Shown piece by piece: positions 24,596 to 51,016 of a stretch of DNA of 64,000 nt. The stretch is from Halorubrum sp. F4 (GTDB taxonomy: Archaea; Halobacteriota; Halobacteria; Halobacteriales; Haloferacaceae). Position numbers and translations under genes: made by a program. The notes under the pieces are model-generated. The model saw only the letters and a program-made list of their open reading frames with translations, made no database searches and had not been told where the DNA came from. The stretch lies in the NCBI RefSeq assembly GCF_027257195.1, contig NZ_JAPDFS010000004.1, positions 34,554 to 98,553 of the forward strand, given 5' to 3'. Each line of letters begins with the position of its first letter. Within the stretch, counting starts at the first letter, position 1.

Positions 24596-24613
24596 TTACC
24601 ACGCTGGTAGTAA
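24596..24613. promoter_or_regulatory. Inverted-repeat operator at the fructosidase promoter
   Basis: TTACCACGCTGGTAGTAA is an inverted repeat of the form TTACNAC-N4-GTNGTAA. It matches 15 of 18 bases with the element at 50999-51016 before the sugar-binding protein gene. Here it lies 10-27 bases upstream of the start codon, overlapping the TATA element (minus-strand TTTTTAC, 24610-24616), a position suited to repression. Confidence 0.6.
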
Positions 24614-24744
24614 AAACCGTTCTGCCGACGTCGCGCGCTCCTCGTCGTCACGCCCTCCCCCGTCGACGAACTCGTGGCCACGCCCGCCCCCGTCGACGGA
24701 CCCACGGACTCCCGGCGGGGCGGCAGATTCCGTCGGAGACAAAA

Positions 24745-24752
24745 CCTATAAG
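24745..24752 (+). promoter_or_regulatory. TATA-like element far upstream of dapA
   Basis: CCTATAAG at 24745-24752 is the best promoter element in the gap between the fructosidase gene and dapA. The expected transcript start near 24775 leaves a leader of about 220 bases before dapA, long for an organism whose genes are mostly leaderless. Confidence 0.45.
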
Positions 24753-24776
24753 CGGCTCATCGATGTACGGAGGAAC

Positions 24777-24851
24777 GTGACTCGAACCGCGTCGCCGCTC
24801 GGCTCGCGATCGCCGGCAGCGGCGCGGCCCTTCTCGAAGAAACGCGCGTGA
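24777..24851 (+). CDS. Possible 24-residue leader peptide upstream of the lysine operon
   Basis: A GTG-initiated frame of 24 codons, MTRTASPLGSRSPAAARPFS then KKRA, begins at the transcript start predicted from the TATA element at 24745-24752. Two consecutive lysine codons (AAG AAA) lie three residues before its stop. Lysine is scarce in haloarchaeal proteins, and the operon makes lysine, so the arrangement resembles an amino-acid-responsive leader peptide. There is no proof that it is translated. Confidence 0.28.
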   Translation: MTRTASPLGSRSPAAARPFSKKRA

Positions 24852-24918
24852 CGCGTCCACAGGCGGGAGTGGCGACCCCGTCCCGGACGACCCCCGACCC
24901 GCGCGCGACCGTTCCGCG

Positions 24919-24932
24919 ACGAACGCGTTCGT
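24919..24932. promoter_or_regulatory. 14-bp perfect palindrome in the dapA leader
   Basis: ACGAACGCGTTCGT is perfectly self-complementary and lies 63 bases before the dapA start, within the presumed leader. It could be an operator or, as RNA, part of a hairpin downstream of the putative leader peptide. Confidence 0.4.
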
Positions 24933-24994
24933 TCCGATGGTCCGCCCGCAACGACCGTCAGCAACGACGCGACCGACACCACACCACGATACCG

Positions 24995-25978
24995 ATGACG
25001 AACACTACGACGACAACGACGCCCTACGCGACCGACGATAGCACCGACCGGGAACCGACCGACGAACCCTTCGAGGGGGTCTACCCCGCGATGACGACCC
25101 CGTTCACCGACGAGAACGAGATCGACCACGAACGGCTCGCCGAGAACGCCCGTTACCTCGAGCGGGCGGGCGTCGACGGGGTCGTTCCCGCCGGCTCCAC
25201 CGGGGAGTCCGCGACGATGACCCACGACGAACACATCGAGGTGGTCGAGACCGTTCGCGACGCCGTCGACGACGTGCCCGTGATCGCGGGCACGGGCTCG
25301 AACAACACCGCCGAGGCGCTCTCCCTTTCCCGCCGAGCCGCGGAGGCGGGTGCTGACGGGCTCCTCCTCATCTCGCCGTACTACAACAAGCCGGAGCCCG
25401 AGGGCTTCCTCGAACACTATCGGACGATCGCCGACGCGGTCGACCTCCCGCAGATCGTCTACAACGTTCCCTCGCGGACGGGGCAGTCGATCCCCGTCGA
25501 CGTCGCGGTCGAACTCGCGACCCACCCCAACGTTCAGGGATACAAGGCCGCCTCGGGCGACCTGAACCGGATCAGCGAGATCATCGAGCGGACCCGAGAC
25601 GAGGAGTTCTCCGTGCTCTCGGGCGACGACGGGCTCACGCTCCCGACGCTCTCGGTCGGCGGGACGGGCACGATAAGCGTCGTCGCGAACGTCGAACCGG
25701 AGCGCTCGTGTGCGATGGTCGGCTCGGCGCTCTCGGGCGACTACGATCGCGCGCGGGAGCTCCACCACGAGCTCGCGCCGCTGGTCCGCGCGCTGTTCGC
25801 CGAGACCAACCCGATCCCGGTGACGGAGGCGATGCACGTCCGCGGTCGCGGCGGCCCGCACGTCCGGTCGCCGCTCACGCGGCTCTCCGAGGAGCGCCGC
25901 GAGGGTCTCCGGGAACTGCTCGCGGAGTACGAGGAGGGGACGCCGACGGCGACGGGCGAGAGAGGTGGGGACGAGTGA
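24995..25978 (+). CDS. dapA: 4-hydroxy-tetrahydrodipicolinate synthase
   Basis: Condenses pyruvate with aspartate semialdehyde, the first committed step to lysine. The 327-residue TIM barrel has the Schiff-base lysine in QGYKAASGD (Lys184) and the catalytic tyrosine in IVYNVPSRTG (Tyr156); PAGSTGESATMTHDEH is the substrate-loop signature. It is some 30 residues longer than usual owing to a Thr/Asp-rich N-terminal extension from the chosen ATG at 24995; a shorter start at 25091 within VYPAMTTPF would lose the first strand and is rejected. First gene of a six-enzyme operon. Confidence 0.96.
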   Translation: MTNTTTTTTPYATDDSTDREPTDEPFEGVYPAMTTPFTDENEIDHERLAENARYLERAGVDGVVPAGSTGESATMTHDEHIEVVETVRDAVDDVPVIAGTGSNNTAEALSLSRRAAEAGADGLLLISPYYNKPEPEGFLEHYRTIADAVDLPQIVYNVPSRTGQSIPVDVAVELATHPNVQGYKAASGDLNRISEIIERTRDEEFSVLSGDDGLTLPTLSVGGTGTISVVANVEPERSCAMVGSALSGDYDRARELHHELAPLVRALFAETNPIPVTEAMHVRGRGGPHVRSPLTRLSEERREGLRELLAEYEEGTPTATGERGGDE

Positions 25979-26790
25979 CCGACGCCGACCTCCGGATCGC
26001 GGTCACGGGCGCGGGGGGCCGAATGGGCCGGGAGGTCATCGAGGCCGCGACGGCCCGGGAGGGCGTGACGGTCGCGGTCGCGGTCAACCGCACCGCCACG
26101 GACTCTGTCGCGGGCGTCGACGTCGCGGACGCGACACGGCTCGCCGACCTGCTCGCCGAGACCGACCCCGACGTGCTCGTCGACTTCACGGGGCCGGCGT
26201 CGGCCCCCGACTACGCCGAGACAGCCGCGGACGCCGGCGTGGCCGTCGTCACCGGGACGACCGGGTTCGATTCGGGAGGCACGGCCCGACTCCGGGCCGC
26301 GAGCGAGACCGTCCCGCTGCTGAAGGCGTCCAACTTCGCTCGGGGGGTCGCCGCGCTCCGCCGGGCGGTCCGCGAGGCGGTCGCGGCCGTCCCGGGATAC
26401 GACGTCGAGCTGACCGAGACCCATCACCACGGGAAGCGGGACGCTCCGTCGGGAACGGCGAAGACGCTCCTCGCCGACGTGGAGGGGGTTCGCGAGGACC
26501 TCGACCGTCGGGTTCACGGCCGCGAGGGCGACGCGCCCCGCGAGCCCGACGAGATCGGCGTCCACGCGAGACGCGCCGGCGACGTGACCGGCGAACACGA
26601 GGTGTTGCTCGCGGGCAACCGCGAGACGCTCGCGCTCACGCACCGCGCCGGCGACCGCGGCGTGTTCGCGGAGGGGGCGCTCGACGCCGCGGCGTGGCTG
26701 GTCGACCGCGATCCGGGGTGGTACGACTTCGACGAGGTTCTCGACGGAGGGTCGGCTCCGACGACGCGGGACGAGGGGACGGGCCGATGA
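25975..26790 (+). CDS. dapB: 4-hydroxy-tetrahydrodipicolinate reductase
   Basis: Reduces the DapA product to tetrahydrodipicolinate with NAD(P)H. The 271-residue protein has the nucleotide-binding start IAVTGAGGRMGREV, VDFTGPAS, and the active-site motif ELTETHHHGKRDAPSGTA with catalytic histidine and lysine. The start is a GTG overlapping the dapA stop by four bases (GTGA), implying translational coupling. It ends in an ATGA overlap with a small open frame. Confidence 0.96.
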   Translation: MTDADLRIAVTGAGGRMGREVIEAATAREGVTVAVAVNRTATDSVAGVDVADATRLADLLAETDPDVLVDFTGPASAPDYAETAADAGVAVVTGTTGFDSGGTARLRAASETVPLLKASNFARGVAALRRAVREAVAAVPGYDVELTETHHHGKRDAPSGTAKTLLADVEGVREDLDRRVHGREGDAPREPDEIGVHARRAGDVTGEHEVLLAGNRETLALTHRAGDRGVFAEGALDAAAWLVDRDPGWYDFDEVLDGGSAPTTRDEGTGR

Positions 26791-26921
26791 GTGACCGACC
26801 GCTGAGTGGACGACCGATGAACGACCGAGTAGTGAACCACCGACCGGCGGGAGCGGGGAGTGCGGTACCCATGGACACACATCGACGAATAAATACCGCC
26901 GGTCGCCATCAGGGGGAGTAA
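26787..26921 (+). CDS. Small open frame bridging dapB and dapD, 44 residues
   Basis: The ATG overlaps the dapB stop (ATGA) and the TAA overlaps the dapD start (TAATG), so the frame exactly fills the gap. The first 60 bases are four imperfect 15-base tandem repeats (26787-26801, 26802-26816, 26817-26831, 26832-26846), giving MSDRP-LSGRP-MNDRV-VNHRP. The whole reads as an Arg/Pro-rich peptide without known family. It may be a coupling device that carries ribosomes across the gap, or a repeat expansion that happens to be open. Confidence 0.4.
   Translation: MSDRPLSGRPMNDRVVNHRPAGAGSAVPMDTHRRINTAGRHQGE
26888..26895 (+). promoter_or_regulatory. Internal TATA element before dapD
   Basis: AATAAATA at 26888-26895 lies 26-33 bases before the dapD ATG at 26921, perfect for leaderless transcription. 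It suggests an internal promoter that lets dapD-lysA-dapF-dapE be expressed apart from dapA-dapB. Confidence 0.6.
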
Positions 26922-27760
26922 TGACGCTCGAATCCGACGTGTCCGACCTCTGGCGGCGATACGAGGACGGGCTCTCGGCCGCGGAGACGACCGCCGACGA
27001 CGTGGCGGTCCTCGACGACTTCCTCGCGGCGCTGGAGGCCGGCGAGATCCGTGCCGCCGAGAAGACCGGCGACGACGTGACGAGTTGGGAGGCGAACGAG
27101 TGGGTCAAACGCGGCATCCTGCTCAACTTCGCGCTCCGTGAAACCGAGCCGCGCGAGTACGGCGGCGTGACCTACTACGACGTGTTGCCGCTGCGCGAGA
27201 CGGACGACCTCGCCGAGCGCGGCACCCGGAACACTCCGGACGGGACCGTGCTCCGGCGCGGGGCCTACCTCGGGAGCGACTGTATCCTGATGAGCCCGGC
27301 CTTCGTCAACATGGGCGCGTACGTCGGAGACGGGACGCTCGTCGATTCCTGTGACACGGTCGGCTCCTGTGCGCAGATCGGCGCGGACGTGAAGCTCGGC
27401 GCGAACACGCTGATCGGCGGCGTCTTAGAGCCGATCGAGGACGCGCCAGTCGTGATCGAGGACGATGTCTCGCTCGGGGCGGGCTGCCGGGTCACGAGCG
27501 GGTTCCGCGTCGGCGAGGGCTCGATCGTCGGCGAGAACACCCTCCTCACGCCGCGGATCCCCGTCTACGACCTCGTCGAGGAGGAAGTGATCTACGGCCA
27601 CCTCCCGGCCGAGCGCCGGGCGTTCACGCGGATGGTGGAGTCGAGCGTCGGCGACCACGACCTCTTCGAGGGCGGTGCGTACAAGCCCGCGGTCGTCGCG
27701 ACCCACGTCGAGGAGGAGACGCTCGAGGCGACCCGACGCGAGGGGGCGCTCCGGGAATGA
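26921..27760 (+). CDS. dapD: 2,3,4,5-tetrahydropyridine-2,6-dicarboxylate N-succinyltransferase
   Basis: Succinylates tetrahydrodipicolinate, opening the succinylase branch to diaminopimelate. The 279-residue protein has a helical N-terminal part and then left-handed beta-helix hexapeptide repeats (MSPAFVNMGAYVGDGTLVDS, CAQIGADVKLGANTLIGGVL). The end carries the acyl-CoA-binding strand and tail. Its stop overlaps the lysA ATG by four bases. A succinyl rather than acetyl donor is inferred from the neighbouring dapE. Confidence 0.95.
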   Translation: MTLESDVSDLWRRYEDGLSAAETTADDVAVLDDFLAALEAGEIRAAEKTGDDVTSWEANEWVKRGILLNFALRETEPREYGGVTYYDVLPLRETDDLAERGTRNTPDGTVLRRGAYLGSDCILMSPAFVNMGAYVGDGTLVDSCDTVGSCAQIGADVKLGANTLIGGVLEPIEDAPVVIEDDVSLGAGCRVTSGFRVGEGSIVGENTLLTPRIPVYDLVEEEVIYGHLPAERRAFTRMVESSVGDHDLFEGGAYKPAVVATHVEEETLEATRREGALRE

Positions 27761-29076
27761 CGACGATCGAGGGAGGTGAGACCGACGCGAACCCCGCAGT
27801 CCGGCGCACGGACGACTGGGACGCCGGCCGACTCCACGAACTCGCCGCCGAGCACGACACGCCGCTGTACGTCCAGGACCTCGACCGCGTCCGCGAGAAC
27901 TGCGATCGCCTGCTCGCGGCGTTCCCCGACGCGGACGTGCGATACGCGGTCAAGGCACACACTGGCCGTGCGACGTTGGAGGCCGTTCGCGAGGCGGGAC
28001 TAGACGCCGAGTGCGCCTCCGCGGGGGAAGTCGATCGCGCGCTCGCGGCCGGATTCGACGGCGGACGGCTCCACTACACCGCGGTCAACCCGCCCGCCCG
28101 CGACCTCGACTACGTCGTCGACGTCGCGGAGCGGGAGCCGGACCTCACGATAACGGCCGGCGCGGTCGACACGCTCGACCGGCTGGCCGAGCGGGGCTAC
28201 GACGGCCGGCTCTGTCTCCGGGTGAATCCCGGGGTCGGCGCGGGCCACCACGAGAAGGTGCGGACCGGCGCGGCCCCGAAGTTCGGCGTCCCCTACGACC
28301 GGGCCGCGCGGGTCGCCCGCGAGGCGGCCGGGCGGTTCGATTTGGTCGGGATCCACGCGCACGCGGGCTCCGGGATCGACCCCGACCAGCTCGACAGCCA
28401 CCGGGAGCTCGTCTCGCGGATGGGCGAGCTTGCGCGTGAGTTGACGGATCCGGGCGCGCCAACCGACGCCCCCCTCGACCTCGAGTACGTCGACGTCGGC
28501 GGCGGCTTCGGCGTTCCGTACCGCGAGGACGCGGAACCGCTCGACCTGCCCGCCGTCGCGGAGGCGACGCGGGACGCGGTCGGCGACCTCCGGGGGCTCG
28601 CGCTCGCGATCGAGCCCGGCCGGTACGTCGTCGCCGACGCGGGCGTCCTCCTGACGCGGGTGAACACGGTGAAGCCGACGCCGGGAGAGACCGTCGTCGG
28701 CGTCGACGCCGGGATGACGGACCTCCTCCGTCCCGCGATGTACGACGCCTACCACCCGATCCGGAACCTCGGCGGGGCGGACGGCGAGCCGACCCCGGCG
28801 GATCGGGAGGAGACCCCCGTCACCGTCGCAGGACCTATCTGTGAGACCGGCGATACCTTCTGTACGAACCGCGCGATCACGCGGCCGGCCCGCGGGGACC
28901 TCCTCGCGGTCGGGATCGCGGGCGCGTACGGATACGAGATGGCGAACCAGTACAACTCGCGGCCGCGGCCCGCGGAGGTCGCGCTGGCGGACGGGGAGGC
29001 GACCGTCGTCCGGCGGCGCGAGCGGCTCGCGGACCTCACGAGGGTCGAGCGGGAGTCGGCGGAGGTGGACCGATGA
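27757..29076 (+). CDS. lysA: Diaminopimelate decarboxylase
   Basis: Converts meso-diaminopimelate to L-lysine with PLP. The 439-residue protein has the PLP lysine in RYAVKAHTG (Lys66), the glycine-rich phosphate-binding segment DVGGGFGVPY, EPGRYVVADAG, and the substrate-binding cysteine region GPICETGDTFC. The start overlaps dapD by four bases and the stop overlaps dapF by four. It is the last enzyme of the pathway although placed mid-operon. Confidence 0.96.
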   Translation: MTTIEGGETDANPAVRRTDDWDAGRLHELAAEHDTPLYVQDLDRVRENCDRLLAAFPDADVRYAVKAHTGRATLEAVREAGLDAECASAGEVDRALAAGFDGGRLHYTAVNPPARDLDYVVDVAEREPDLTITAGAVDTLDRLAERGYDGRLCLRVNPGVGAGHHEKVRTGAAPKFGVPYDRAARVAREAAGRFDLVGIHAHAGSGIDPDQLDSHRELVSRMGELARELTDPGAPTDAPLDLEYVDVGGGFGVPYREDAEPLDLPAVAEATRDAVGDLRGLALAIEPGRYVVADAGVLLTRVNTVKPTPGETVVGVDAGMTDLLRPAMYDAYHPIRNLGGADGEPTPADREETPVTVAGPICETGDTFCTNRAITRPARGDLLAVGIAGAYGYEMANQYNSRPRPAEVALADGEATVVRRRERLADLTRVERESAEVDR

Positions 29077-30047
29077 GCACCCACGCCGTCCCGGTGGAGA
29101 AGTACCACGGCACCGGCAACGACTTCCTCGTGGTCGACGCCGCCGAGGGCGTGGGCGACCGGGCGGCGTTCGCCCGGGCGTACTGCGACCGCGAGACCGG
29201 GATCACCGCGGAGGACGTGGACGCGGTCGAGGGCGGGGACGACTCCGTCCCGGCGGCCGCGGACGGTCACGCCGGCCGTCGCGGGGCGGACGGCGTCCTC
29301 TTCCTGGAGCTCGGCGAGCGCTACCGGCCGACCCGCGTCGTGATGACGCTCGTCCAGCCGGACGGCTCGACGGCCGCCATGTGCGGCAATGGCGCACGCG
29401 TCGTCGCCCGCTGGGCACACGACCGAACCGGCGAGCGCGAGTTCATGATCGACACGCAGGCGGGAACCCGCCGGGCGACCGTGAGCGCCGACTCCGCTTC
29501 GGCGACCATCGAGATGGGGACGCCGCGGTTCGACCCGGCCGCGGTGCCCGTCGACCGCGACGAGCCGCTCGTCGAGGAGGAGATCGAGGGACTCACCGTC
29601 ACCGCCGTCGACACCGGCGTTCCACACGCCGTGGCGTTTCTCGAAGGTGGTCGCGACGCCCCCGACGGGATCGACGCGGTCGACATCGACACGGTCGCGC
29701 CGCCGGTCAGACACGCGGACGTCTTCCCGCAGGGCGCGAACGTGAACCTGGCCGCGGTCGTCGACGAGGGGACGGCCGCCGGCGACGCGGAGGGAGACGA
29801 TCACCCGGCCGTCATCGACCAGCGAACCTTCGAGCGTGGCGTCGAGGGTGAGACGCGCTCGTGCGGGACGGGCGCGGTCGCCGTCGTCGCGGTCGCCCGC
29901 CGGTTGGGCCTGATCGACGGCGACACGGCCGTGACCCGGCCGCCGGGCGGCGAGTTGCGCATTACCGTCCCGGACGACGACCACGCGACGCTGACCGGTC
30001 CGGTCGCCCGCGAGTTCTCGGGACGGGTCGCGGCCGATCCGCGATGA
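29073..30047 (+). CDS. dapF: Diaminopimelate epimerase
   Basis: Interconverts LL- and meso-diaminopimelate. The 324-residue protein has the two catalytic cysteines in AAMCGNGAR (Cys104) and RSCGTGAVA (Cys264) and the start KYHGTGNDFLVVDA. It is slightly longer than the bacterial enzyme through an acidic loop near residues 46-70. It overlaps lysA and dapE by ATGA junctions. Confidence 0.96.
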   Translation: MSTHAVPVEKYHGTGNDFLVVDAAEGVGDRAAFARAYCDRETGITAEDVDAVEGGDDSVPAAADGHAGRRGADGVLFLELGERYRPTRVVMTLVQPDGSTAAMCGNGARVVARWAHDRTGEREFMIDTQAGTRRATVSADSASATIEMGTPRFDPAAVPVDRDEPLVEEEIEGLTVTAVDTGVPHAVAFLEGGRDAPDGIDAVDIDTVAPPVRHADVFPQGANVNLAAVVDEGTAAGDAEGDDHPAVIDQRTFERGVEGETRSCGTGAVAVVAVARRLGLIDGDTAVTRPPGGELRITVPDDDHATLTGPVAREFSGRVAADPR

Positions 30048-31309
30048 CCGACGCCGCCACCCCCGGCGACGACCTCGCTGGGAGCGACTTCGACCCGATC
30101 GGGTTCCTCGAGGCGGCCGTCTCGACCCCCTCACACGAGGACGTCGCGGAGATGCGTCGACTGCTCGTGGAGACGCTCGAGGGGTTCGGCGTCGACGTCG
30201 CCGTCGACGAGGCCGGCTGCGTCGTCGCCGAGAAGGCCTCCCCGAACCCCGAAAACGGCCCGCACGTCGTCGCGAACACCCACATCGACACCGTCACACC
30301 ACACGTCGCGTTCGAACGTGATCGGGCCGCGACCGGCCCGGAAGCCGGGACGACGGCGGACGACGGGAGAACCGCGAACGACGCGGAAACGGACGGGACC
30401 GACGTGATCCGGGGTCGCGGGGCGTGTGACGCCAAGGGACCGCTGGCGGCGCTCCTGTACGGGTTCCTCGCGGCCGATCCGGATCGAGGTCGACTCACGC
30501 TGGCGGTGACGCCCGACGAGGAGACGCTCTCTCTCGGGGCCGCGGCGCTTTCCGGGAAGCTTTCGGGAGGCGAGGACCGCCTCGACGGCGACCTGTATCT
30601 CGTCGGCGAGCCCACGGGTCTCGACGCCTGTACGGCCGCGAAGGGACGGTTCCAGGGACGCGTCGAGCTTTCTGGCGAGGCGGCACACGCCGCCGAGTTC
30701 GCCGGCGCGAACGCGGTCGCGGCCGCGGAGGGCGCGCTCGCCGCGATCCGTCGGTTCGACGAGGACGCGAAGGACCACCCGCAACTCGGCGCGCCGAAGC
30801 TCACGCCGACCGTCGTCGAGGGCGGCGGGGCGACGAACCAGGTGCCCGCCGACTGCGCGATCACGGTCGACCGGCGGAGCGTCCCGCCGGAGACCGCGGA
30901 AGGGTTCCGCAGCGGTCTCGCGGACGCGGTCCGAACGGCGGTCGGCGCGATGGACGGGAGCGCGGCGAGCGTCGACGTCGACGTCGCCCTCACCGACCGC
31001 GACTCCCCGTTCTTCGAGGCGTTCTCGACCGACCCGGACCACGAGTTCGTCGACACCGTCGCGGCGGCGGCGAGGACGGCGGTCGCGGACGCGGGGCTCC
31101 CGGACGGCCGCGGCGGCGAGATCCGCCCGTTCGGTGCGGCCACGGAGGCGTCGTACTTCGCGCCGGCTCCCACGGTCGTGTTCGGGCCGGGCGATCTCGC
31201 GGACGACGCCGGCGCGGTGGCCCACGCCGAACGCGAGTACGTCAGGGTCCGCGAGGTCGAGGCCGCGGCCGCGACGGTCGCGAGCGTCCTCGATCGCGTG
31301 CTCGCGTGA
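30044..31309 (+). CDS. dapE: Succinyl-diaminopimelate desuccinylase (M20 family)
   Basis: Removes succinate from N-succinyl-LL-diaminopimelate. This 421-residue M20 metallohydrolase has the first zinc histidine and aspartate in ANTHIDTV, the bridging aspartate in GRGACDAKGPL, and the catalytic and zinc glutamates in TPDEETLS. The dimerisation lid follows (GRFQGRVELSGEAAHAAEFA). An acidic insert occupies about residues 95-122. By sequence alone it could be another M20 amidohydrolase, but the overlapping position in the dap operon makes DapE the natural call. It closes the operon. Confidence 0.92.
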   Translation: MTDAATPGDDLAGSDFDPIGFLEAAVSTPSHEDVAEMRRLLVETLEGFGVDVAVDEAGCVVAEKASPNPENGPHVVANTHIDTVTPHVAFERDRAATGPEAGTTADDGRTANDAETDGTDVIRGRGACDAKGPLAALLYGFLAADPDRGRLTLAVTPDEETLSLGAAALSGKLSGGEDRLDGDLYLVGEPTGLDACTAAKGRFQGRVELSGEAAHAAEFAGANAVAAAEGALAAIRRFDEDAKDHPQLGAPKLTPTVVEGGGATNQVPADCAITVDRRSVPPETAEGFRSGLADAVRTAVGAMDGSAASVDVDVALTDRDSPFFEAFSTDPDHEFVDTVAAAARTAVADAGLPDGRGGEIRPFGAATEASYFAPAPTVVFGPGDLADDAGAVAHAEREYVRVREVEAAAATVASVLDRVLA

Positions 31310-31364
31310 GACGCCGGCGTGAGGGACGGATCTGGCGGGTCGGACGCCCGCGGATCGCCGCGAG

Positions 31365-31775
31365 CTACCCGATGAAGAAGTCGATCGCGTCGCCGGTCGA
31401 CTGGCCCTTGTACAGCTCCGAGTAGCCACAGTTCGCACACGAGACGACGACGAACCGACGGTTCTGCACGTCGAACAGCTTTGTGAGCCCGGTCCCGCTG
31501 GTCGCGATCTCGTCGGTCTCCGTCTCCTCGCCGCCGCACTTCGGACAGCCGGCGTCGCCGTCGGATCCGAGGGTCTCGGCGTCGGCGTCCGCACGCGATC
31601 CGGTCGACCAGGCGGTCCCGTCGTACTCGGCACGACCGGGGCCGGGACCATCGTCACCGTCGGCGGATCGATCGGTGCCGTCGCGGTGCCCGTCGTCGTT
31701 TTCGCCGTCGTTTCCGTCGCCGGTCGAGTCGTCGCCGAAGAGGGAGTAGCTCGTGTCGTTCTCGTCGGAGGGCAT
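31365..31775 (-). CDS. Zinc-ribbon protein with disordered acidic N-terminus
   Basis: A 136-residue protein. Residues 1-75 are acidic and Asp/Gly/Ser-rich. The C-terminal zinc ribbon has CPKCGG and CANCGYSELYKG, the arrangement of the nucleic-acid-binding zinc-ribbon family. The ribbon's partner is unknown. The start at 31775 is chosen over a longer in-frame start because ACATTTATTC, read on the minus strand at about 31797-31806, is at leaderless TATA distance. It is convergent with dapE and divergent from the amidohydrolase. Confidence 0.8.
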   Translation of the reverse strand: MPSDENDTSYSLFGDDSTGDGNDGENDDGHRDGTDRSADGDDGPGPGRAEYDGTAWSTGSRADADAETLGSDGDAGCPKCGGEETETDEIATSGTGLTKLFDVQNRRFVVVSCANCGYSELYKGQSTGDAIDFFIG

Positions 31776-31865
31776 CGGTTCGAGCCTGATCGGTCGCGAA
31801 TAAATGTTTTCCGGCGACTGCGATCCGTCCCAAACGGTTAATCCGTCCGGCGCGGGAGGACGTTC

Positions 31866-33482: not shown

Positions 33483-33529
33483 GGGGCGTTCGCGAGGATT
33501 CGATTACCATCTACCGCCGCCGCTGCGCC

Positions 33530-43302: not shown

Positions 43303-43327
43303 ACGCCGAACGTCCGGGGCGTCGGGC

Positions 43328-43335
43328 ATAAATCC
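43328..43335 (-). promoter_or_regulatory. TATA element deciding the DUF7115-like start
   Basis: Minus-strand GATTTATG at 43328-43335 lies 26-33 bases before the ATG at 43302, the standard leaderless spacing. Confidence 0.55.
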
Positions 43336-43486
43336 GCGGGGTCCGTTTCTCGGTCCTGGATCCGACCGCGTGGATTCGGCTCGCGGGCCACGGACCGGCC
43401 CGCGGGCCCGTCCGCCCGTGCGGAACTCTCACAGACCCCGGACGGATGGGAAGGTTAAAGAGTGTCATCGCGATACGTGAGAGTGA

Positions 43487-43640
43487 GGCCGGGTGGCTTA
43501 GCTGGACATAGCGCCGCACTCATAGGGTTCAGAGATTCGGTGCGGTGACGCCTTGGAAGCGTCCGCGTCCTTCCCGTGGCTCCGCCGAGCCTCGGACCTG
43601 GGACATGCGGAGATCGTGGGTTCGGAGCCCACCCCGGCCA
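43487..43640 (+). tRNA. Elongator tRNA-Met (CAU) with an 80-base intron
   Basis: The acceptor stem pairs GGCCGGG (43487-43493) with CCCGGCC (43633-43639) and the discriminator A is 43640. The T arm is GTGGG-TTCGGAG-CCCAC. The anticodon stem CCGCA pairs with TGCGG, and the loop CTCATAA carries CAU at 43521-43523. The intron runs from 43525 to 43604, between positions 37 and 38, the canonical archaeal site removed by the bulge-helix-bulge endonuclease. Haloferax elongator tRNA-Met has an intron of similar size at the same place. GGTTAAAG at 43453-43460 is the TATA element. Confidence 0.93.
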
Positions 43641-43677
43641 TCTAACCTTTTATTTCCCCCGACGGAGACCACGGGGT

Positions 43678-44496
43678 ATGCCACACCGCGTCTGTCTCAC
43701 CTACGACTTCGACGCCGTCGCCGGCTGGACGAGCGCCGGGATGTCCGAGTACCGCTCATGGGGAGTCTACGGGGCCGAGACGTGCGTCCCGCGACTGCTC
43801 GACCTCCACGACCGGACCGGCGTGCCCGCCACCTGGTTCGTTCCGGGACACACGATCGAGAGTTTTCCCGAGGTCTCCGGCGAGATCCACGACCGCGGCC
43901 ACGAGATCCAACACCACGGGTGGAGCCACGACCCGCTCCCGTCCTTCGGCTCGAGGGAGGCCGAACGCCGCGACTTCGTCCGCGGGATCGAGGCCATCGA
44001 GGACCTGACCGGCCGGACGCCGACCGGCTTTCGGAACCCCGCGGGCGGCTTCTCCGAACACACCGTCGACCTGCTTCGGGAGTTCGACTTCGAGTGGGAC
44101 TCGAGCGGCACCGAGCGCGACCTCCGGCCGTACTACCTCCGCGAACCGGGCACCGTCGAGGACGGGAAACCGTACCGACGCGGAGATCAGACCGACATCG
44201 TGACGGTCCCGGTGCCGTGGCACCGCGACGACTGGCTCCAGCTCTTCCCCGTCGCCTCCGACCCGCAGTTCGTCTCCTACGGACACGAGCCCGACGTGTT
44301 CCACCGCTGGCGGACGGAACTGTCGTGGATGCGCGAGCACGTCGAGGAGGGCGTCCTGACGCTTCTGTTGCACCCGCAGTGTGCCGGTCGCGCTCCGTTC
44401 GTCGCCGAGCTCGAGGCGTTCGTCGACGACGTGACGGACATGCCCGATACCGACTTCGCCGACGTCTCGACCGTCGTGTCGTCGTTCTCGGCGTGA
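43678..44496 (+). CDS. Polysaccharide deacetylase-family protein
   Basis: A 272-residue NodB-fold hydrolase. The first catalytic motif is LTYDFDAVAGW (TYDFD), the metal histidines lie in EIQHHGWSHDP (H-x3-H type), and the later RNPAGGFSEHT contributes the conserved arginine. Such enzymes remove acetyl groups from amino sugars or hydrolyse cyclic amides (allantoinase/PuuE-like members share the long substrate loops seen here). No signal peptide, so it acts in the cytoplasm. CTTTTATTTCC at about 43647-43657 is a strong TATA element 21-31 bases before the ATG. Confidence 0.88.
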   Translation: MPHRVCLTYDFDAVAGWTSAGMSEYRSWGVYGAETCVPRLLDLHDRTGVPATWFVPGHTIESFPEVSGEIHDRGHEIQHHGWSHDPLPSFGSREAERRDFVRGIEAIEDLTGRTPTGFRNPAGGFSEHTVDLLREFDFEWDSSGTERDLRPYYLREPGTVEDGKPYRRGDQTDIVTVPVPWHRDDWLQLFPVASDPQFVSYGHEPDVFHRWRTELSWMREHVEEGVLTLLLHPQCAGRAPFVAELEAFVDDVTDMPDTDFADVSTVVSSFSA

Positions 44497-44524
44497 GCAG
44501 TGCGAGCTGCGAACGGCGCTTGAG

Positions 44525-45955
44525 TCAATCGTCTCCCGTACTCGAGCGGTAGCGTCGACTGACGACCTTCCAGCGGCCGGACCGGAACAGTCCGTAGTTG
44601 ATGAGGCCCGGAACGAACGGCTCCAGGATCAGCGCCAGATGGAGCCCGACGACGCCGAGCGGCGTGACCAGCCCGATGAGCGCGGCCGGTAACGCGAAGG
44701 CGTACCGACCGAGAAGCGATGCGACGAAGGGCCACCGCGTGTCGCCGGCGCCAACGAGCGCGCCCGAGGCGGTTCCGTCGAGCCCGAGGCCGACCGCGCT
44801 CACGGCGGCGACGGCGACGAACGTCGCGGTCGCGGCGACCTCCTCGGGTCCGGAGACGAAGAGCTCCGCGAGCGGCGACGCCAGCAGGATCACGACCGCG
44901 GCGAGGAGCACGTAGATCACCATCGACAGTCGGATGATGTCCGCGCCGTACGCGCCGGCCTCGTCCTCCTCGTCGGCCCCGAGCCGCTGGCCGACGAGCG
45001 AGCTCGACGCCAGCGACATGCCCCAGTTGACGCTGTTTATCATCGCGCGGACCCGCCGTGCGACCTCGAGGGAGGTCACGACGACCGGGCCGAACGAGGC
45101 GGCGATCCACAGGAGCGGGAAGACCACGAGCCCCTGGGCGAGCCGGCGGCCGATCTCGGGCGTGGAGACCTCGAGCAGCTGCCGGACGATCCCCGCGTCG
45201 ACGACCGGACGCGACACCGAGATCGGCACCGGACTCGGTTCCATCCCCAACTGCCCGTACGAGCGTCCGACCATCCCCCACCCGAGAACGACCGTCACCG
45301 CGCCGGTCGAGAGCGTCGTCCCCAGCGCGACCCCGGCGACGCCCATGTCGAGCCCGAAGATGAACAGCGCGCTGAGGACGACGTTGAGCACCGCGCCGCC
45401 CGTCCGGGCGACCATCTCGGTGAAGGTGTCTCCGACGCCGGTGTACGTCCGGCTGGCGATGAGGTTCAGGGTCTCGAACAGCACGGCGGGCGTGACGTAC
45501 AGCAGGTAGACCGTGCCGTACCCGAGCGACTCGGGCTCGGCACCCAGAACGGCGATCAGTTCGGAAGCGAACAGGGTGAAAAGCGCCATGATCGGCAGCG
45601 ACAGCGCCACCGCGAGCAGCGCGCTCTGTGTGACCACGCGCGAGGCGCGGCGGGTTCGACCGCCGCCGTAGTTCTGCGAGACGAGGCTCACGGTCCCGCC
45701 CGCCAGTCCGAGTCCCACCAGGACGACGATGCTCCAGTAGCCGAGCGCGAACGCCAGTCCGGCGGTCCCGGCGGTGCCGATGGAGATGCCGACCATCGCC
45801 AGGTCGGCGGTCTGTTTCGACATGATCGCGAACCCCGTCACCACGCGCGGCCAGGCGAGATCGAGCGTGGGACGGAACCGATCGGCGCCGATGATCCCCC
45901 AGCGATCGAGGAGGCGTCCGAGGGCATCGATCGGGTCGTCACGAGGGATCGGCAT
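44525..45955 (-). CDS. MATE-family exporter
   Basis: A 476-residue membrane protein with 12 hydrophobic segments in two similar halves. TVSLVSQNYGGG and SSSLVGQRLGADEEDEAGAY are the matching cation/drug-binding loops of the two halves of MATE/DinF transporters. It probably exports organic cations or other compounds using Na+ or H+. The start at 45955 (MPIPRDDPIDALGRLLDRWG) is chosen over an upstream in-frame start that would extend through the gap. It lies 86 bases after the small gene that ends the sugar ABC operon and may be read from the same transcript. Confidence 0.88.
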   Translation of the reverse strand: MPIPRDDPIDALGRLLDRWGIIGADRFRPTLDLAWPRVVTGFAIMSKQTADLAMVGISIGTAGTAGLAFALGYWSIVVLVGLGLAGGTVSLVSQNYGGGRTRRASRVVTQSALLAVALSLPIMALFTLFASELIAVLGAEPESLGYGTVYLLYVTPAVLFETLNLIASRTYTGVGDTFTEMVARTGGAVLNVVLSALFIFGLDMGVAGVALGTTLSTGAVTVVLGWGMVGRSYGQLGMEPSPVPISVSRPVVDAGIVRQLLEVSTPEIGRRLAQGLVVFPLLWIAASFGPVVVTSLEVARRVRAMINSVNWGMSLASSSLVGQRLGADEEDEAGAYGADIIRLSMVIYVLLAAVVILLASPLAELFVSGPEEVAATATFVAVAAVSAVGLGLDGTASGALVGAGDTRWPFVASLLGRYAFALPAALIGLVTPLGVVGLHLALILEPFVPGLINYGLFRSGRWKVVSRRYRSSTGDD

Positions 45956-46041
45956 GGAAGGTACTGGCTCGGACGCCACTTCGCTCTGGCGACTTCCCGA
46001 GTCGGTTGCCGGAGCTCGAACGAAAGGAGATCCTTCGCCGA

Positions 46042-46245
46042 TCAGTACAGCTGTCGTTCCCGCGACTCCCGTTCCTCCTCCTCTTCGGCCTGCGCTTTCA
46101 GCTGCTTTCGACCCTCGCGGTAGTCCCGTATCCCCGGGATCAGCTTGTTCTTCACGTCGAGGACGAACGAGACGATCCCGTACGCCCAAAAGAAGAACAG
46201 CACCGTCATTCCGCCGTAGTAGACGAGGGCGACGACGTTACTCAT
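46042..46245 (-). CDS. 67-residue membrane protein closing the sugar ABC operon
   Basis: One transmembrane helix (VVALVYYGGMTVLFFFWAYG) is followed by a basic then strongly charged helical tail (LIPGIRDYREGRKQLKAQAE, then EEEERESRE). The ATG at 46245 overlaps the end of the ATPase gene by eight bases, so the two are translationally coupled. Similar small genes sit behind MalK-like ATPases in other haloarchaeal sugar operons as I recall. Function is unknown; a membrane anchor or regulator of the transporter is possible. Confidence 0.78.
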   Translation of the reverse strand: MSNVVALVYYGGMTVLFFFWAYGIVSFVLDVKNKLIPGIRDYREGRKQLKAQAEEEEERESRERQLY

Positions 46246-47437
46246 CGGCCTCACCCGAGCGCGTCTCCGAGACCCGCGTTTCGAAGCCGGAGCTCGTGAG
46301 GTCCTCGACGCCGTGGACCAGCGCGTCGCCGGAGGCGTCGTCGAAGAGGTGGACCTTCGTCCGGTCGAAGACGACCTCCATCGACTCGTCCTCCTCGATG
46401 TCCCGGTCCGGATCGACGCTCATCAACAGCTGATCCGAGCCCGTCGCGTCGCCCCGCATCGCCCCCGCGTCCGTCTCGTCGAAGGTGAGGTAGACGAAGA
46501 TCTGATCGCCCATCGGCTCGAGCACGTCGGTGGTCACCTCGATGGGATCCGACGGCGTCGAGATGGCTCCCTGCGTGTCGGTGGGGTAGACGTCCTCGGG
46601 GCGGATCCCGATCGTCACGTCGTCGCCCGCGGACGCGCCGGGAACGTTCTCGACGTCGAGGTCGATCGCGAAGTCGTCGGTCTCCGCGCCGTTCGCGGTC
46701 AGTCTCCCGCGGAGCAGGTTCATCGAAGGCGAGCCGATGAAACCGGCGACGAAGAGGTTCGCCGGCTCGTTATAACAGACGAGCGGCGGGTCGATCTGCT
46801 GGAGCTCGCCGCCGTCTATCACCGCGATCCGGTCCGACATCGTCATCGCCTCCGCCTGGTCGTGGGTGACGTAGATGATGGTGGTGTCGAGCTCCTTGTG
46901 GAGCCGCTGGAGCTCCGTTCGCATGTGGACGCGCAGCTTGGCGTCCAGGTTCGCGAGCGGCTCGTCCATGAGGAAGACGTCCGGCTCGCGGACGATCGCC
47001 CGGGCGATCGCGACCCGCTGCCGCTGGCCGCCGGACATCTCCTCGGGCATCCGGTCGAGCATCCCCTCGAGCTGGACGACGTCGGTCGCGTGCTCGACGC
47101 GCCGGTCGATCTCCTCCTTGTCGTAATCGCGGAGGCGAAGCCCGAACGAGATGTTCTCGTAGACGTCCATGTGCGGGAACAGCGCGATGTTCTGGAACAC
47201 CATCGCGACCCCGCGGTCCTTCGGCGGCAGGGTGGTGACGTCCCGGTCGCCGATGGAGATCGTTCCCTCGGTCGGTTTCGTGAGTCCGGCGATCGTCTCC
47301 ATCGTGGTCGACTTCCCGCAGCCCGACGGACCGACGAGACAGATGAACTCCCCGTCGTCGATGTCGAGGTTCATGTCGTCGACCGCCGTGACGTCCTCGT
47401 AGCGTTTCGTGACGTGTTCGAGTGTTAAGTTGGCCAT
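46238..47437 (-). CDS. Sugar ABC transporter ATP-binding protein (MalK/UgpC type)
   Basis: Powers import of a sugar through the two permeases encoded upstream. The 399-residue protein has Walker A GPSGCGKSTT, the Q-loop VFQNIALFPH, signature MSGGQRQRVAIAR, Walker B DVFLMDEPLANLDAKLR and switch histidine IYVTHDQAEA. The C-terminal TOBE/MalK regulatory domain (about 240-399) has GIRPEDVYP. It begins four bases after the permease stop. Confidence 0.96.
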   Translation of the reverse strand: MANLTLEHVTKRYEDVTAVDDMNLDIDDGEFICLVGPSGCGKSTTMETIAGLTKPTEGTISIGDRDVTTLPPKDRGVAMVFQNIALFPHMDVYENISFGLRLRDYDKEEIDRRVEHATDVVQLEGMLDRMPEEMSGGQRQRVAIARAIVREPDVFLMDEPLANLDAKLRVHMRTELQRLHKELDTTIIYVTHDQAEAMTMSDRIAVIDGGELQQIDPPLVCYNEPANLFVAGFIGSPSMNLLRGRLTANGAETDDFAIDLDVENVPGASAGDDVTIGIRPEDVYPTDTQGAISTPSDPIEVTTDVLEPMGDQIFVYLTFDETDAGAMRGDATGSDQLLMSVDPDRDIEEDESMEVVFDRTKVHLFDDASGDALVHGVEDLTSSGFETRVSETRSGEADE

Positions 47438-47441
47438 GGAT

Positions 47442-48455
47442 TTACTCCTTGAGTCCGCCCGCAGTCAGTCCGCTGACGATCCGTTCCTGTGCGACGATGA
47501 CGATGATCACGATCGGCAACACCCCGACGATGCTCGCGGCCGCCATGAGGTTGAACTCCGTCGTGTACTGCGTCTGGTAGCTCAGGATACCGCCGAGAAG
47601 CGGCGACCAGTTCTCGGGGTTGTTCTCCAGCGCCATGATCGAGCTGAAGAAGTACTCGTTGTAGACCGTGATGAACGTCAACACGGCCGCGGTCGCGAGC
47701 CCCGGTGCCGAAAGCGGCATGATGACCCTCACGAGCGCGCCGAGTCTGGTGGTTCCCTCCACGCGCGCCGCGTCCTCGAGTCCGTCCGGGATCTGCGAGT
47801 AGAACGTGGTGAGAATGAAGATCGCGAGCGGCAGGAACAGCGCGCTGAACGGCAACACCATGCTGGCGGGGGTGTTCACGAGCCGCGGCGACTCGAACAG
47901 CTCGATCCCGAGGAACGGGACGACGACGGCGTTCCCGAGGAACGCGTCGAAGAGCGGCACGAGGAACGCCGCCGGGGGGAAATACGATATCATCAACACG
48001 ACGAGCATGAGGACCCCGCGGCCGGGGAAGTCGAGCCGACCGAAGACGTACCCGGCGAGCGTCGCGACCGCGAGGACGATCACCGTCGTCGAGATCGCGA
48101 GCACGAAGCTGTTGAACATGAACAGGTGGAACGGCACCTGCTCGAACATCTCCACGAACGCGTACACGTTGAACCCCTGCGGATGGGGGAACTCGATCCC
48201 GATGATCGGCAGCGACCAGTCGCCCGTGAGGATCCGACTCGTCGGCGTCAACGCCAACACGAGCAGCCAGTAGAACGGGAACAGCGTCGTGAGGAGGAAG
48301 AAGCCGGCCGCGACGATGAAGAGCGCCCGGTAGAGCCGTTCGCGTTTCTCCTGGTCCTCGATCACGCTCTTCGTCCAGCGTGCCAGCGGACCGCCCTCCG
48401 GTTCCGTCGAGTCGTTCGATCCCGTCGAGTCGTTCGATCCGTCGATGGTTGCCAT
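47442..48455 (-). CDS. Sugar ABC transporter permease (MalG type)
   Basis: A 337-residue inner-membrane permease with six or seven helices. The EAA loop that docks to the ATPase reads EDAARVEGTTRLGALVRVIM, followed by PLSAPGLATAAVLTFI. The first helix begins near LYRALFIVAAGFFLLTTLFP, after about 40 residues of acidic cytoplasmic N-terminus. Start at 48455; the previous permease gene ends one base upstream. Confidence 0.94.
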   Translation of the reverse strand: MATIDGSNDSTGSNDSTEPEGGPLARWTKSVIEDQEKRERLYRALFIVAAGFFLLTTLFPFYWLLVLALTPTSRILTGDWSLPIIGIEFPHPQGFNVYAFVEMFEQVPFHLFMFNSFVLAISTTVIVLAVATLAGYVFGRLDFPGRGVLMLVVLMISYFPPAAFLVPLFDAFLGNAVVVPFLGIELFESPRLVNTPASMVLPFSALFLPLAIFILTTFYSQIPDGLEDAARVEGTTRLGALVRVIMPLSAPGLATAAVLTFITVYNEYFFSSIMALENNPENWSPLLGGILSYQTQYTTEFNLMAAASIVGVLPIVIIVIVAQERIVSGLTAGGLKE

Positions 48456-48456
48456 G

Positions 48457-49461
48457 TCAGAATCCCTCCTTGTACCGCTGGTAGATGACGACCGACGCGA
48501 CGATGCCGACGATCCCCGCGGTCACGAACGCGATCGCGGAGGAGAGCCCGCGACTCGAGTAGAACGTCTCGACGACCATACACGACAGCGACGGGACCGT
48601 CGTACAGCTCGAGACCGTGTCGATGAGCCCGTAGATCCGCATCGCGTTGATCGTCCGGAAGAGGACGGCGATGATGAGCGTGGGCAACACGAGCGGGAAC
48701 GTGATGAGCTTGAACTGCTGCCAGGGACTCGCGCCGGCGACCTTGGCCACGTCGTAGAGGTTGCGGTCGATGCTCTGAAGCCCGGCGAGGATGAGAAGCG
48801 CCATGAACGCCGACGTCTTCCAGATGTCGGCCACCGTGACGATCAGGAACGTGCTCGCCGGGTCGTTGAGCGTGTTCGTCTCCGCGACGAGCCCGAGCGG
48901 CGCGAGGTAGCTGGTCAGGAACCCGGTGCTCGGGTGGAACATCAGATAGAAGATCATTCCCTGAATGACGAGCGGGATCGCCCACGGGATGATGATCGCC
49001 GCGCGGACCCACCGCCGACCGGAGAAGTCCTTGTCGAGGATGAGCGCCTGCCCGAACCCGATGATCGTCTCGAAGGAGACGCTCACGAAGGTGAAGAGCA
49101 GGGTCACGATCAGGGTGCTGCGAACCCACCCGTCGACGTGGACGAACGGGAAGCTCCCGGAGGTCGTCACGTCGGGGAGGAAGGTGACCGAGCCGGGAAG
49201 CGTCGGGTTCGCCGCCCCGGTGAACAGGTCGACGTAGTTCTGGAGTCCGACGAAGGTCGGCTCGCCGGAACCCAGTACCCCGGTGAAAAGCGACAGCTCG
49301 AACGTCCGCAACAGCGGATAGAAGGCGATCGCGCCGAGCAGCACGAAGACGGGAGTCAAAAGCAGGTAGGCGAACGCGGTCTCGCCGAGGTTCTCGAGCC
49401 ACCGGCTGAACGAGACGACGGGTCCCGGCCACTTCGATTCGTGTTCGCGTCCGGTGCTCAT
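48457..49461 (-). CDS. Sugar ABC transporter permease (MalF/UgpA type)
   Basis: A 334-residue permease with about six helices. The EAA loop is YDVAKVAGASPWQQFKLITF. The large periplasmic loop between helices 1 and 2 (FVGLQNYVDLFTG, then TSGSFPFVHVDGWVRST) is typical of MalF/UgpA partners. Together with the next permease it forms the translocation pore. It starts two bases after the binding-protein stop. Confidence 0.94.
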   Translation of the reverse strand: MSTGREHESKWPGPVVSFSRWLENLGETAFAYLLLTPVFVLLGAIAFYPLLRTFELSLFTGVLGSGEPTFVGLQNYVDLFTGAANPTLPGSVTFLPDVTTSGSFPFVHVDGWVRSTLIVTLLFTFVSVSFETIIGFGQALILDKDFSGRRWVRAAIIIPWAIPLVIQGMIFYLMFHPSTGFLTSYLAPLGLVAETNTLNDPASTFLIVTVADIWKTSAFMALLILAGLQSIDRNLYDVAKVAGASPWQQFKLITFPLVLPTLIIAVLFRTINAMRIYGLIDTVSSCTTVPSLSCMVVETFYSSRGLSSAIAFVTAGIVGIVASVVIYQRYKEGF

Positions 49462-49463
49462 CG

Positions 49464-50954
49464 TTACGACCCGCTTTCCTCGCTCGCTTCGATCGCGTCT
49501 TGAAGTGTCGATGCGGCGTCAGCGGGACTCGTCTCGCCGGCGACGGCGGCGTTGACCTGTTCGGCGATGGTCGTCGACTGGGACGGCCACTGGGTCGTGA
49601 CCGGCCGCGGCATCGCGCCCTGGCCCGCCACCTGGAGCGTGCTCATGTAGTTCGCGACCACGCCGACGCTCTCCGGATCGGTCACGTCGTCGGCCTCGAA
49701 GAGGTCGGGTTTCGGCGGGAGCCACGCGATGGTCTCGAGCATGCCGATGTTGAAGTCGTCCTGCGTGGTGGCCCGCAGCACCTCGAGCGCCTCCTCCTTT
49801 CGCTCGGAGTTGGGATTCATGGTGAGGTGCCAGCCGCCCTGCGCGGAGGTCGAACCGCCGGTACCCGGATACGCGCCCTCGCCGTCCTCGACGGCGTACG
49901 GCATGGGCATCGTGCCGAGGTCGCTCTCGTCGTCGAAGCTCTCGTAGTCGCCGGTGAGCGCCTCGACGATCGCGTACGGCCAGTTGCGGTGGAAGGCCGC
50001 CTGTCCCTCCGTGAACGGCGAGAGTGCCGGGTTCTCCGTCCAGGACGTGATGTCCGGGGAGGCCAATCCGGTCGGGTACGCGTCGAGGGTGTTCTCGTCG
50101 TCCTCGGTCGCGGCGAGCGTGTACATCATCGAGAGCGCCTCGATGAACTCCGACTCGTCGATGGTGACCGGGCGGTCGCCGACGGGGCCCTGGAGGTTCT
50201 CGTCGCCGCCGAAGTACGCGCCGCCGAAGGAGGTCATGACCTCGTTGAAGCTACAGCAGGCGGTGCCCTCGTAGACGTCCATCTGCGTCGAGAACCCGAA
50301 CTCGGCGTCGGAGGCATCGACGATCTCCTGGGCCATCCCGCCCCACTCCTCCCAGGTCATGGGCTCGGACTCCCACTGGGCGAAGTCCTCGTCGGTGTAG
50401 CCGGCCTCGCGGGCGTAGTTCTTGTTGTACAGCATCACCGCGTAGTCCGGGAACAGCGGGACGCCGAACAGGTCCCCGCTCTCGGTGTCCCGGACGGTGT
50501 CGGTGAACGCCTGGAAGTAGTCCTCGTTGATCGTCGAGAGGGTCTCGTCGTCCAGTTCCTCGGAGAGGTTCGCGAGGTAGCCCCGCTGGATGAAGACGTT
50601 CGCCCACCCGGTGTCCATCATGAACAGGTCGGGGCTGGTCTCCTCGGCCTGGAGCAGGGAGACGTACTGGTCGCGCTGCTCGCCCGTGTCGTTGGACTGT
50701 TCGCTGAACTCGATCTCGATGTCCTCGCTGAGGCCGTTCTCGTAGAGGAGGTCCGGCATGTCCTCTCTGATGTCCTCGATGGTGGTCGACCCCATGGCGA
50801 TCGTCACGGACGCACCGTCTCCGTCGTCATCTCCACCGTAGATACATCCGGAGAGGCTCGCTGCTGCCCCTCCTGCCCCGGTCGCCTTGATGAACTTGCG
50901 GCGGGAGACGCTCGATCCGGTTCGATTCGCGTCGTGTGAACGACTGTCCTCCAT
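49464..50954 (-). CDS. Sugar-binding lipoprotein of the ABC importer
   Basis: Captures the sugar outside the cell and delivers it to the permeases. The 496-residue protein starts MEDSRSHDANRTGSSV, then SRRKFIKATGAGGAAASLSG and a cysteine, a Tat signal with a lipobox, so it is folded before export and lipid-anchored. The mature part is a family-1 extracellular solute-binding protein (LYNKNYAREAGYTDEDFAQW; FHRNWPYAIVEALTGDY). Which sugar is unknown; the shared promoter element with the fructosidase gene suggests a fructoside or its product. First gene of the five-gene operon, with a clear TATA at 50978-50986. Confidence 0.94.
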   Translation of the reverse strand: MEDSRSHDANRTGSSVSRRKFIKATGAGGAAASLSGCIYGGDDDGDGASVTIAMGSTTIEDIREDMPDLLYENGLSEDIEIEFSEQSNDTGEQRDQYVSLLQAEETSPDLFMMDTGWANVFIQRGYLANLSEELDDETLSTINEDYFQAFTDTVRDTESGDLFGVPLFPDYAVMLYNKNYAREAGYTDEDFAQWESEPMTWEEWGGMAQEIVDASDAEFGFSTQMDVYEGTACCSFNEVMTSFGGAYFGGDENLQGPVGDRPVTIDESEFIEALSMMYTLAATEDDENTLDAYPTGLASPDITSWTENPALSPFTEGQAAFHRNWPYAIVEALTGDYESFDDESDLGTMPMPYAVEDGEGAYPGTGGSTSAQGGWHLTMNPNSERKEEALEVLRATTQDDFNIGMLETIAWLPPKPDLFEADDVTDPESVGVVANYMSTLQVAGQGAMPRPVTTQWPSQSTTIAEQVNAAVAGETSPADAASTLQDAIEASEESGS

Positions 50955-50977
50955 GGCAGATCGTGTTATTTGTATGT

Positions 50978-50986
50978 ATTTATAAT
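50978..50986 (-). promoter_or_regulatory. TATA element of the sugar ABC operon
   Basis: Minus-strand ATTATAAAT at 50978-50986 lies 24-32 bases before the ATG at 50954, giving a leaderless operon mRNA. The shared operator lies 13-30 bases further upstream. Confidence 0.65.
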
Positions 50987-50998
50987 TAATGGTGGCTG

Positions 50999-51016
50999 TT
51001 ACAACACCGGTAGTAA
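50999..51016. promoter_or_regulatory. Inverted-repeat operator upstream of the sugar ABC promoter
   Basis: TTACAACACCGGTAGTAA has the form TTACNAC-N4-GTNGTAA and matches the fructosidase element at 24596-24613 at 15 of 18 bases. Here it is upstream of the TATA element, a position suited to activation rather than repression. Confidence 0.6.

Follow-up and report, generated by a model that had tools for sequence, protein, structure and literature searches.

A shared 18-bp palindrome as the probable operator of a TrmB3-like regulator of sucrose and fructan genes in Halorubrum

Archaeal regulators of the TrmB family follow a position rule by which binding over or downstream of the TATA element represses a promoter and binding upstream of it activates (PMC4706686, PMC10817205, PMC4158304; these papers and PMC11519228 were available in part, and what is said of them is limited to those parts). 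Their published operators include TACT-N3-AGTA, TATCAC-N5-GTGATA and TACT-N7-8-GAGTA (PMC4158304), from all of which the inverted repeat TTACNAC-N4-GTNGTAA differs. This 18-bp dyad occurs twice in the 64,000-nucleotide stretch of Halorubrum sp. F4 analysed here (the window), once on the promoter of a glycoside hydrolase family 32 (GH32) gene, box 1, and once upstream of the promoter of an ATP-binding cassette (ABC) importer operon, box 2. The boxes are read here as the operator of TrmB-A, a protein of a TrmB3-like clade encoded outside the window, which would act in both directions on a sucrose/fructan regulon; a probability of roughly 0.62 is given to this reading, a figure that is itself a compromise.

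The nearest named protein to TrmB-A is TrmB3 of Haloarcula hispanica (HAH_1557), which likewise joins a TrmB DNA-binding domain to a sugar-binding domain and whose gene borders a carbohydrate ABC importer (PMC10817205). In Haloarcula, loci of the present clade show the same layout of TrmB gene, importer and canonical TrmB gene, and HAH_1557 presumably belongs to the clade of TrmB-A; the two differ in setting, as HAH_1557 lies beside the importer and the TrmB gene of the window's genome beside guaB. The available part of PMC10817205 gives no operator, ligand or target for HAH_1557, and a literature search that left most subscription journals outside its scope found no study of a sucrose or TrmB3 regulon in haloarchaea.

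The canonical haloarchaeal TrmB (VNG1451C, HAH_1548) has the same pair of domains as TrmB-A and is likewise an activator at upstream sites and a repressor at downstream ones (PMC4158304, PMC10817205). Unlike the present clade, it has the motif TACT-N7-8-GAGTA (described for Halobacterium; PMC4158304), which is in neither box, a gluconeogenesis regulon and a separate branch of the tree. In Haloarcula hispanica its 15 sites from chromatin immunoprecipitation sequencing (ChIP-seq) include fbp and a sugar major facilitator superfamily (MFS) gene, with none, in the part of PMC10817205 available, near HAH_1548-HAH_1557 or near gfcR (HAH_1560; PMC11519228). The window's genome holds an orthologue of VNG1451C, judged by family resemblance (C34:16433-17482), and the canonical gene is present in 52 of 53 Halorubrum genomes, those without the regulon included.

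Dual regulation through a dyad, as proposed here, is also a feature of Pyrococcus TrmBL1 and Thermococcus Tgr, whose half-site TATCAC is close to TTATCAC, one half of the boxes in clustered Halorubrum loci described below; their operator TATCAC-N5-GTGATA serves a glycolysis/gluconeogenesis regulon and has a 5-bp spacer (PMC4706686), whereas both boxes have a spacer of 4 and TTACNAC half-sites and do not contain this Thermococcales glycolytic motif. The trehalose/maltose TrmB of Pyrococcus and Thermococcus, whose gene lies beside a disaccharide importer and which binds maltose and sucrose, represses that importer from TACT-N3-AGTA on the transcription factor B recognition element (BRE) and TATA element (PMC4158304), whereas here the importer box lies upstream of the TATA element. 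The present regulator is filed as a TrmB-kind protein with a new operator and regulon.

The two boxes and their recurrence

Box 1 and box 2 agree at 15 of 18 bases and match every specified position of the dyad, of which there are 12 (box scores are given below as x/12), as an earlier note on this DNA had claimed. Also as claimed, box 1 overlaps the TATA-like element of the fructosidase gene and box 2 lies just upstream of that of the importer, which was confirmed by reading of the sequence. The edge of box 1 is 10 bp upstream of the GH32 start codon, with the TATA-like element 25-30 bp upstream of it as for a leaderless haloarchaeal transcript; that of box 2 is 45 bp upstream of the start codon of the substrate-binding protein (SBP) gene and 13 bp upstream of the TATA-like element. 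Box 1 is exact at the same place, -27 to -10, in seven congeneric GH32 promoters (the window's own included), and box 2 is identical in two congeners, with variants at other SBP promoters.

In the window's genome (G000; 3.28 Mb, 75 contigs) a scan of the kind the earlier note had suggested found the exact pattern at these two places and nowhere else, and the reversed pattern at none. At up to two mismatches the window holds two matches against a shuffle mean of 0.36, a number reached by 5 of 100 shuffles, and the whole genome holds 23 sites against 17 reversed controls; weaker matches are therefore mostly noise, and the two-mismatch sites were for the most part discounted; of the 13 fetched (L003-L015), 6 lie inside called genes. 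The 53 Halorubrum genomes contain 16 exact sites, spread over 13 of them, and not a single reversed site, which supports one shared operator, although related species are not independent samples in this or the other counts given here. Seven of the exact sites lie before GH32 genes, five before SBP genes (three close homologues, two distant) and four before a receiver-domain gene next to sufS. By a simple codon-score gene caller, some of whose starts are wrong, 15 of the 16 are intergenic, and the other (L018) lies inside an open reading frame whose start was probably called too early. Neither of the two observations that the earlier note held would speak against the operator was thus made, the motif being infrequent in coding regions and present in the promoters of near relatives.

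Among 393 genomes of the order, 30 hold a match, and in the 360 outside the genus the raw excess is small, at 23 sites compared with 15 for the reversed control. Twenty of these 23 loci were read: eight sites precede an SBP homologue, one a GH32 gene and two a sugar MFS gene, three lie by a KdgA-like gene and six elsewhere. A TrmB gene adjoins the box in three of the eight SBP loci (L192, L195, L196), all of them found by the pattern alone. At L199, L200 and L201 (1501-1518) TTACTACGCGTGTAGTAA stands between the gene for a KdgA-like aldolase and that for an enolase-superfamily-like dehydratase, the latter named by reading of the sequence, and a weakly TrmB-like gene is nearby. The receiver-domain gene beside sufS has an exact box upstream in four congeners (L018, L020, L021, L023 at 1501-1518) and a 10/12 box in the window's genome (C40:20541-20558).

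A third target is suggested by a two-mismatch site 32-49 bp upstream of a glycoside hydrolase family 68 (GH68) gene, about 158 kb from the GH32 gene; its end at -32 touches the expected BRE. In genomes with a GH32 gene of the window's type, the GH68 box scores at least 9/12 in 11 of 11 and at least 10/12 in 9 of 11, and the GH32 promoters score at least 10/12 in 8 of 11 (7 exact), with two at 9 and one cut by a contig end. Of 18 stretches obtained from congeners, 13 have importer, TrmB gene, GH68 and GH32 side by side, which supports a sucrose/fructoside-type substrate for the importer, where the earlier note had predicted a fructoside or its product. In four more (L111-L114) importer, GH68 and GH32 are together, a TrmB gene (45-47% identity) being some 4-7 kb away from the SBP gene. 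The clustered type carries a box of at least 10/12 (e.g. CTACCACGGCCGTGATAA) between GH68 and TrmB in all 15 loci examined. Five clustered-type GH32 promoters (L110, L117, L119, L123, L127) have a dyad-like element near TGACTCG-N4-CGAGTGA at box 1's place (about -27), which may be a drifted operator.

The genes of the proposed regulon also occur together or not at all in most of the genus: among the 53 genomes GH32 is in 33, GH68 in the same 33, the SBP in 32 and the TrmB clade in 32 (E-values up to 1e-86, a line set after the list was seen); 31 genomes have all four and 20 have none of them. The two that deviate are G020, which has no SBP, and G035, which has no TrmB gene. In eight regulon-less genomes the next paralogue matches at about 1e-74 to 1e-82; G006 has a partial and G044 a weaker match, and G049 and G051 carry both kinds. 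The record Halobellus captivus ZY8 and G012, which is grouped in Halorubrum, share the same TrmB contig coordinates, and the name may be outdated.

Table 1. Coordinates of the boxes, promoter elements and genes (window positions unless a contig handle is given)
Feature	Position	Strand	Basis or remark
Box 1, TTACTACCAGCGTGGTAA (as read on minus strand)	24596..24613	-	putative operator on GH32 promoter; 12/12 dyad positions
TATA-like TTTTTA of GH32 gene	24611..24616	-	read from sequence; overlapped by box 1
GH32 glycosidase gene, 808 aa	22160..24586	-	PF00251 E 1.4e-70, PF08244 E 4.3e-16; GH32 by both domains
Box 2, TTACTACCGGTGTTGTAA (as read on minus strand)	50999..51016	-	putative operator upstream of importer promoter; 12/12 dyad positions
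TATA-like TTATAAATA of importer operon	about 50977..50985	-	read from sequence; 13 bp downstream of box 2
SBP gene of importer, with twin-arginine (Tat) signal	49464..50954	-	PF01547 E 5.2e-23, PF10518 E 5.6e-05
ABC permease gene	48457..49461	-	PF00528 E 6.2e-14
ABC permease gene	47442..48455	-	PF00528 E 1.9e-12
ABC ATPase gene, MalK type	46238..47437	-	PF00005 E 1.6e-36, PF17912 (OB_MalK) E 7.3e-12
Putative GH68 box, TTTTAACGGGTGTAGTAA	C34:217207-217224		10/12
GH68 fructosyltransferase gene	C34:215868-217175		PF02435 E 3.2e-79; GH68 by this match
TrmB-A gene, 370 aa, outside window, beside guaB	C1:426912-428024		PF01978 and PF11495

The importer operon thus consists of the SBP, two permeases and a MalK-type ATPase. 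The N-terminal part of the GH32 protein (residues 39-148) gives a weak DUF4960 match (E 0.0038, below cut-off). Divergent from the GH32 gene runs a lysine-synthesis operon (DapA, THDPS-type transferase, LysA-type decarboxylase, DapF; window 24848-30047, plus strand), and in the intergenic region between the two, box 1 is close to the GH32 start only.

The candidate regulator and its relatives

TrmB-A has an N-terminal TrmB winged helix-turn-helix (PF01978, E 4.2e-18, 65.4 bits against a cut-off of 25.6) and a C-terminal sugar-binding domain (PF11495, E 9.3e-53), and its alignment with 3qph keeps the residues at G320, V324 and E326 (numbering counted by hand). It is the sole homologue in the window's genome of the clustered TrmB proteins at E 1e-40. 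At 72% identity or more it is found in 9 of the 11 genomes with a GH32 gene of the window's type; in G034 it is a 139-residue piece, and it is not in G035, a genome 79% complete. TrmB-A is 33% identical to the canonical TrmB of the same genome, and in a tree of 85 proteins it stands among guaB-linked proteins and outside the canonical haloarchaeal branch, which holds five proteins apart from the rest with 100/90 support. The earlier note had pointed to a TrmB-type regulator on the model of the known haloarchaeal TrmB; the family stands, whereas the regulator is most likely of the TrmB3-like clade, separate from the known protein.

The assignment of the operator to this clade is suggested by synteny and co-occurrence. 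A TrmB-alignment scan of named genomes kept 80 loci of 111 relatives, and wherever the TrmB gene is directly followed by an SBP gene (34 of 34 loci) the intervening DNA holds a box of at least 10/12, scoring 12 in 5, 11 in 6 and 10 in 23, with 18 distinct sequences and a consensus of about TTWACNAC-N4-GTNGTWA. From the end of the box to the start of a TATA-like element there are 9-13 bp in 29 of these loci and 4 bp in one, no such element being found in four; because the pattern itself served to choose the top site in each intergenic stretch, the base counts are partly circular, the TATA spacing less so. Against 89 permuted palindromes, the 80 loci hold 24 sites at up to one mismatch (permuted mean 0.87, maximum 13) and 5 exact sites (mean 0.045, maximum 1).

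The box, at 10/12 or more, also precedes gfcR-like genes in 8 of the 14 listed (L230, L232, L233, L235, L236, L243, L248, L270, at 10-11/12) and genes like those of glycoside hydrolase family 13 (GH13) in 4 of 10, with one further GH13-like gene at L336. Halogranum amylolyticum and Halegenticoccus soli have a box before the SBP gene and Halogeometricum limi one before GH68, and all three hold a guaB-linked TrmB. Sugar kinase (PfkB) promoters near TrmB reach a best score of 8/12 among the eight listed. In Halorubrum the best fbp promoter score is 9/12 in 30 loci fetched (53 genomes), fbp lying closely behind an upstream reading frame, and the canonical TrmB motif could not be read from these promoters.

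Proposed mechanism and competing readings

Genome comparison gives the conserved candidate operator, the promoters that carry it, the way it tracks the TrmB clade through the genus and its position next to the TrmB gene in other families; on this is built a proposal for binding, direction and ligand. A TrmB-A dimer would bind the 18-bp dyad, covering the TATA element on the GH32 promoter and thereby blocking transcription, and sitting just upstream of the BRE/TATA on the importer promoter and thereby activating it, and a sugar held in the C-terminal domain would change DNA binding. The regulon would comprise the GH32 hydrolase, the GH68 fructosyltransferase and the ABC importer. Going by box position, GH32 is probably repressed and the importer probably activated, and with a box ending at -32 the direction at GH68 is undecided under the position rule. 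That the box is the operator of TrmB-A's clade appears quite likely, and if it is, action in both directions is somewhat favoured. For the importer, sucrose or a fructoside is the most likely substrate, since the importer shares the operator with GH68, GH32 and GH13 alpha-glucosidases, enzymes that are able to act on sucrose.

Several observations weigh against this proposal. The TrmB-A gene is distant from its proposed targets, and autoregulation was rejected, as the upstream regions of nine guaB-linked Halorubrum copies (L156-L164) reach 7/12 at most. In the L111-L114 kind four GH68 promoters score only 6-7, and in the clustered type the importer promoters mostly, and the GH32 promoters wholly, are without the box. 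Over all types, 8 of 29 GH32 and 14 of 29 SBP promoters reach 10/12 (30 loci each were fetched for GH68, SBP and GH32; L068 and L108 were dropped for short upstream sequence, and L056 and L101, each with a contig start within the gene, counted as misses), and one of the 14 SBP boxes (L083) is at the start codon, not upstream of the TATA element. Nine Haloferax genomes hold a guaB-linked TrmB orthologue; in the four Haloferax loci read no box was seen at a sugar importer or hydrolase, and the near-matches precede fbp or lie by the elongation factor 1-alpha gene. Lowering the hydrolase while raising the importer would be an unusual logic for one sugar, and both the binding of TrmB-A to the boxes and its effect on transcripts are predictions from sequence.

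That last oddity would vanish if the same operator and TrmB-clade regulator worked in one direction only, for example with all three promoters repressed until sucrose releases them, an arrangement that would be simpler for an importer paired with its hydrolase. Pyrococcus TrmB does repress its maltose/trehalose importer (PMC4158304), and the GH68 box touching the BRE would suit repression; the repressing Thermococcales operator, however, sits on the BRE/TATA (PMC4158304), whereas the importer boxes stand clear of the TATA-like element by 9-13 bp in most loci, and one-way action is considered rather unlikely. Binding of the boxes by the canonical haloarchaeal TrmB, which would tie the sucrose genes to the gluconeogenesis switch, is more doubtful again. 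Its gene is on the window's contig, lies within about 3 kb of the boxed importer in Halogranum amylolyticum and Halegenticoccus soli and stands at the far end of the importer operon in several Haloarcula-type loci, and its likely targets (fbp in Haloferax, a sugar MFS gene in L188 and L189) show similar dyads; the closeness in the two named species and these dyads count against TrmB-A as well. As mentioned, however, the canonical gene is in nearly every Halorubrum genome regardless of the regulon, its published motif is different, and its Haloarcula hispanica sites, as far as reported in the available text, leave out both the importer locus and gfcR.

Ownership of the box by a regulator outside the TrmB family is improbable. 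It draws on the exact boxes before the receiver-domain gene (G006, G010, G011, G020), two of which are in genomes with no TrmB-clade match at E 1e-40 (G011) or a partial one (G006), so another regulator may use a similar dyad, a point that also tells against TrmB-A as sole user. Against it stands the box beside the clade's own TrmB gene in all 34 TrmB-SBP pairs and in L192, L195 and L196, loci at which no other regulator family was seen, other families not having been searched for genome-wide. Chance or common promoter composition as the source of the shared dyad is very improbable: the shuffles of the window and the small excess outside the genus would allow it, but not readily the 16 exact sites against none in the genus or the 24 sites near TrmB genes, where permuted palindromes average 0.87.

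Meaning for haloarchaeal sugar regulation

For a TrmB clade found uncharacterised, the proposal names a candidate regulator, its consensus operator and its likely targets, and it predicts a sucrose/fructoside importer. With the box on the TATA element in one promoter and upstream of it in another, the archaeal position rule becomes approachable on one small natural regulon. In a broader and tentative reading, the TrmB3 clade would be a disaccharide switch of the whole class Halobacteria that keeps its 18-bp operator across several families while the regulon is rebuilt and the operator moves between activating and repressing places; the targets would be GH32 and GH68 in Halorubrum, and GH13 alpha-glucosidase-type and gfcR activator genes in Haloarcula, where TrmB3 would stand above GfcR in a two-step sugar cascade. 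The boxes before gfcR in part of the Haloarcula-type loci suggest that disaccharide sensing and the known glucose/fructose activator are connected.

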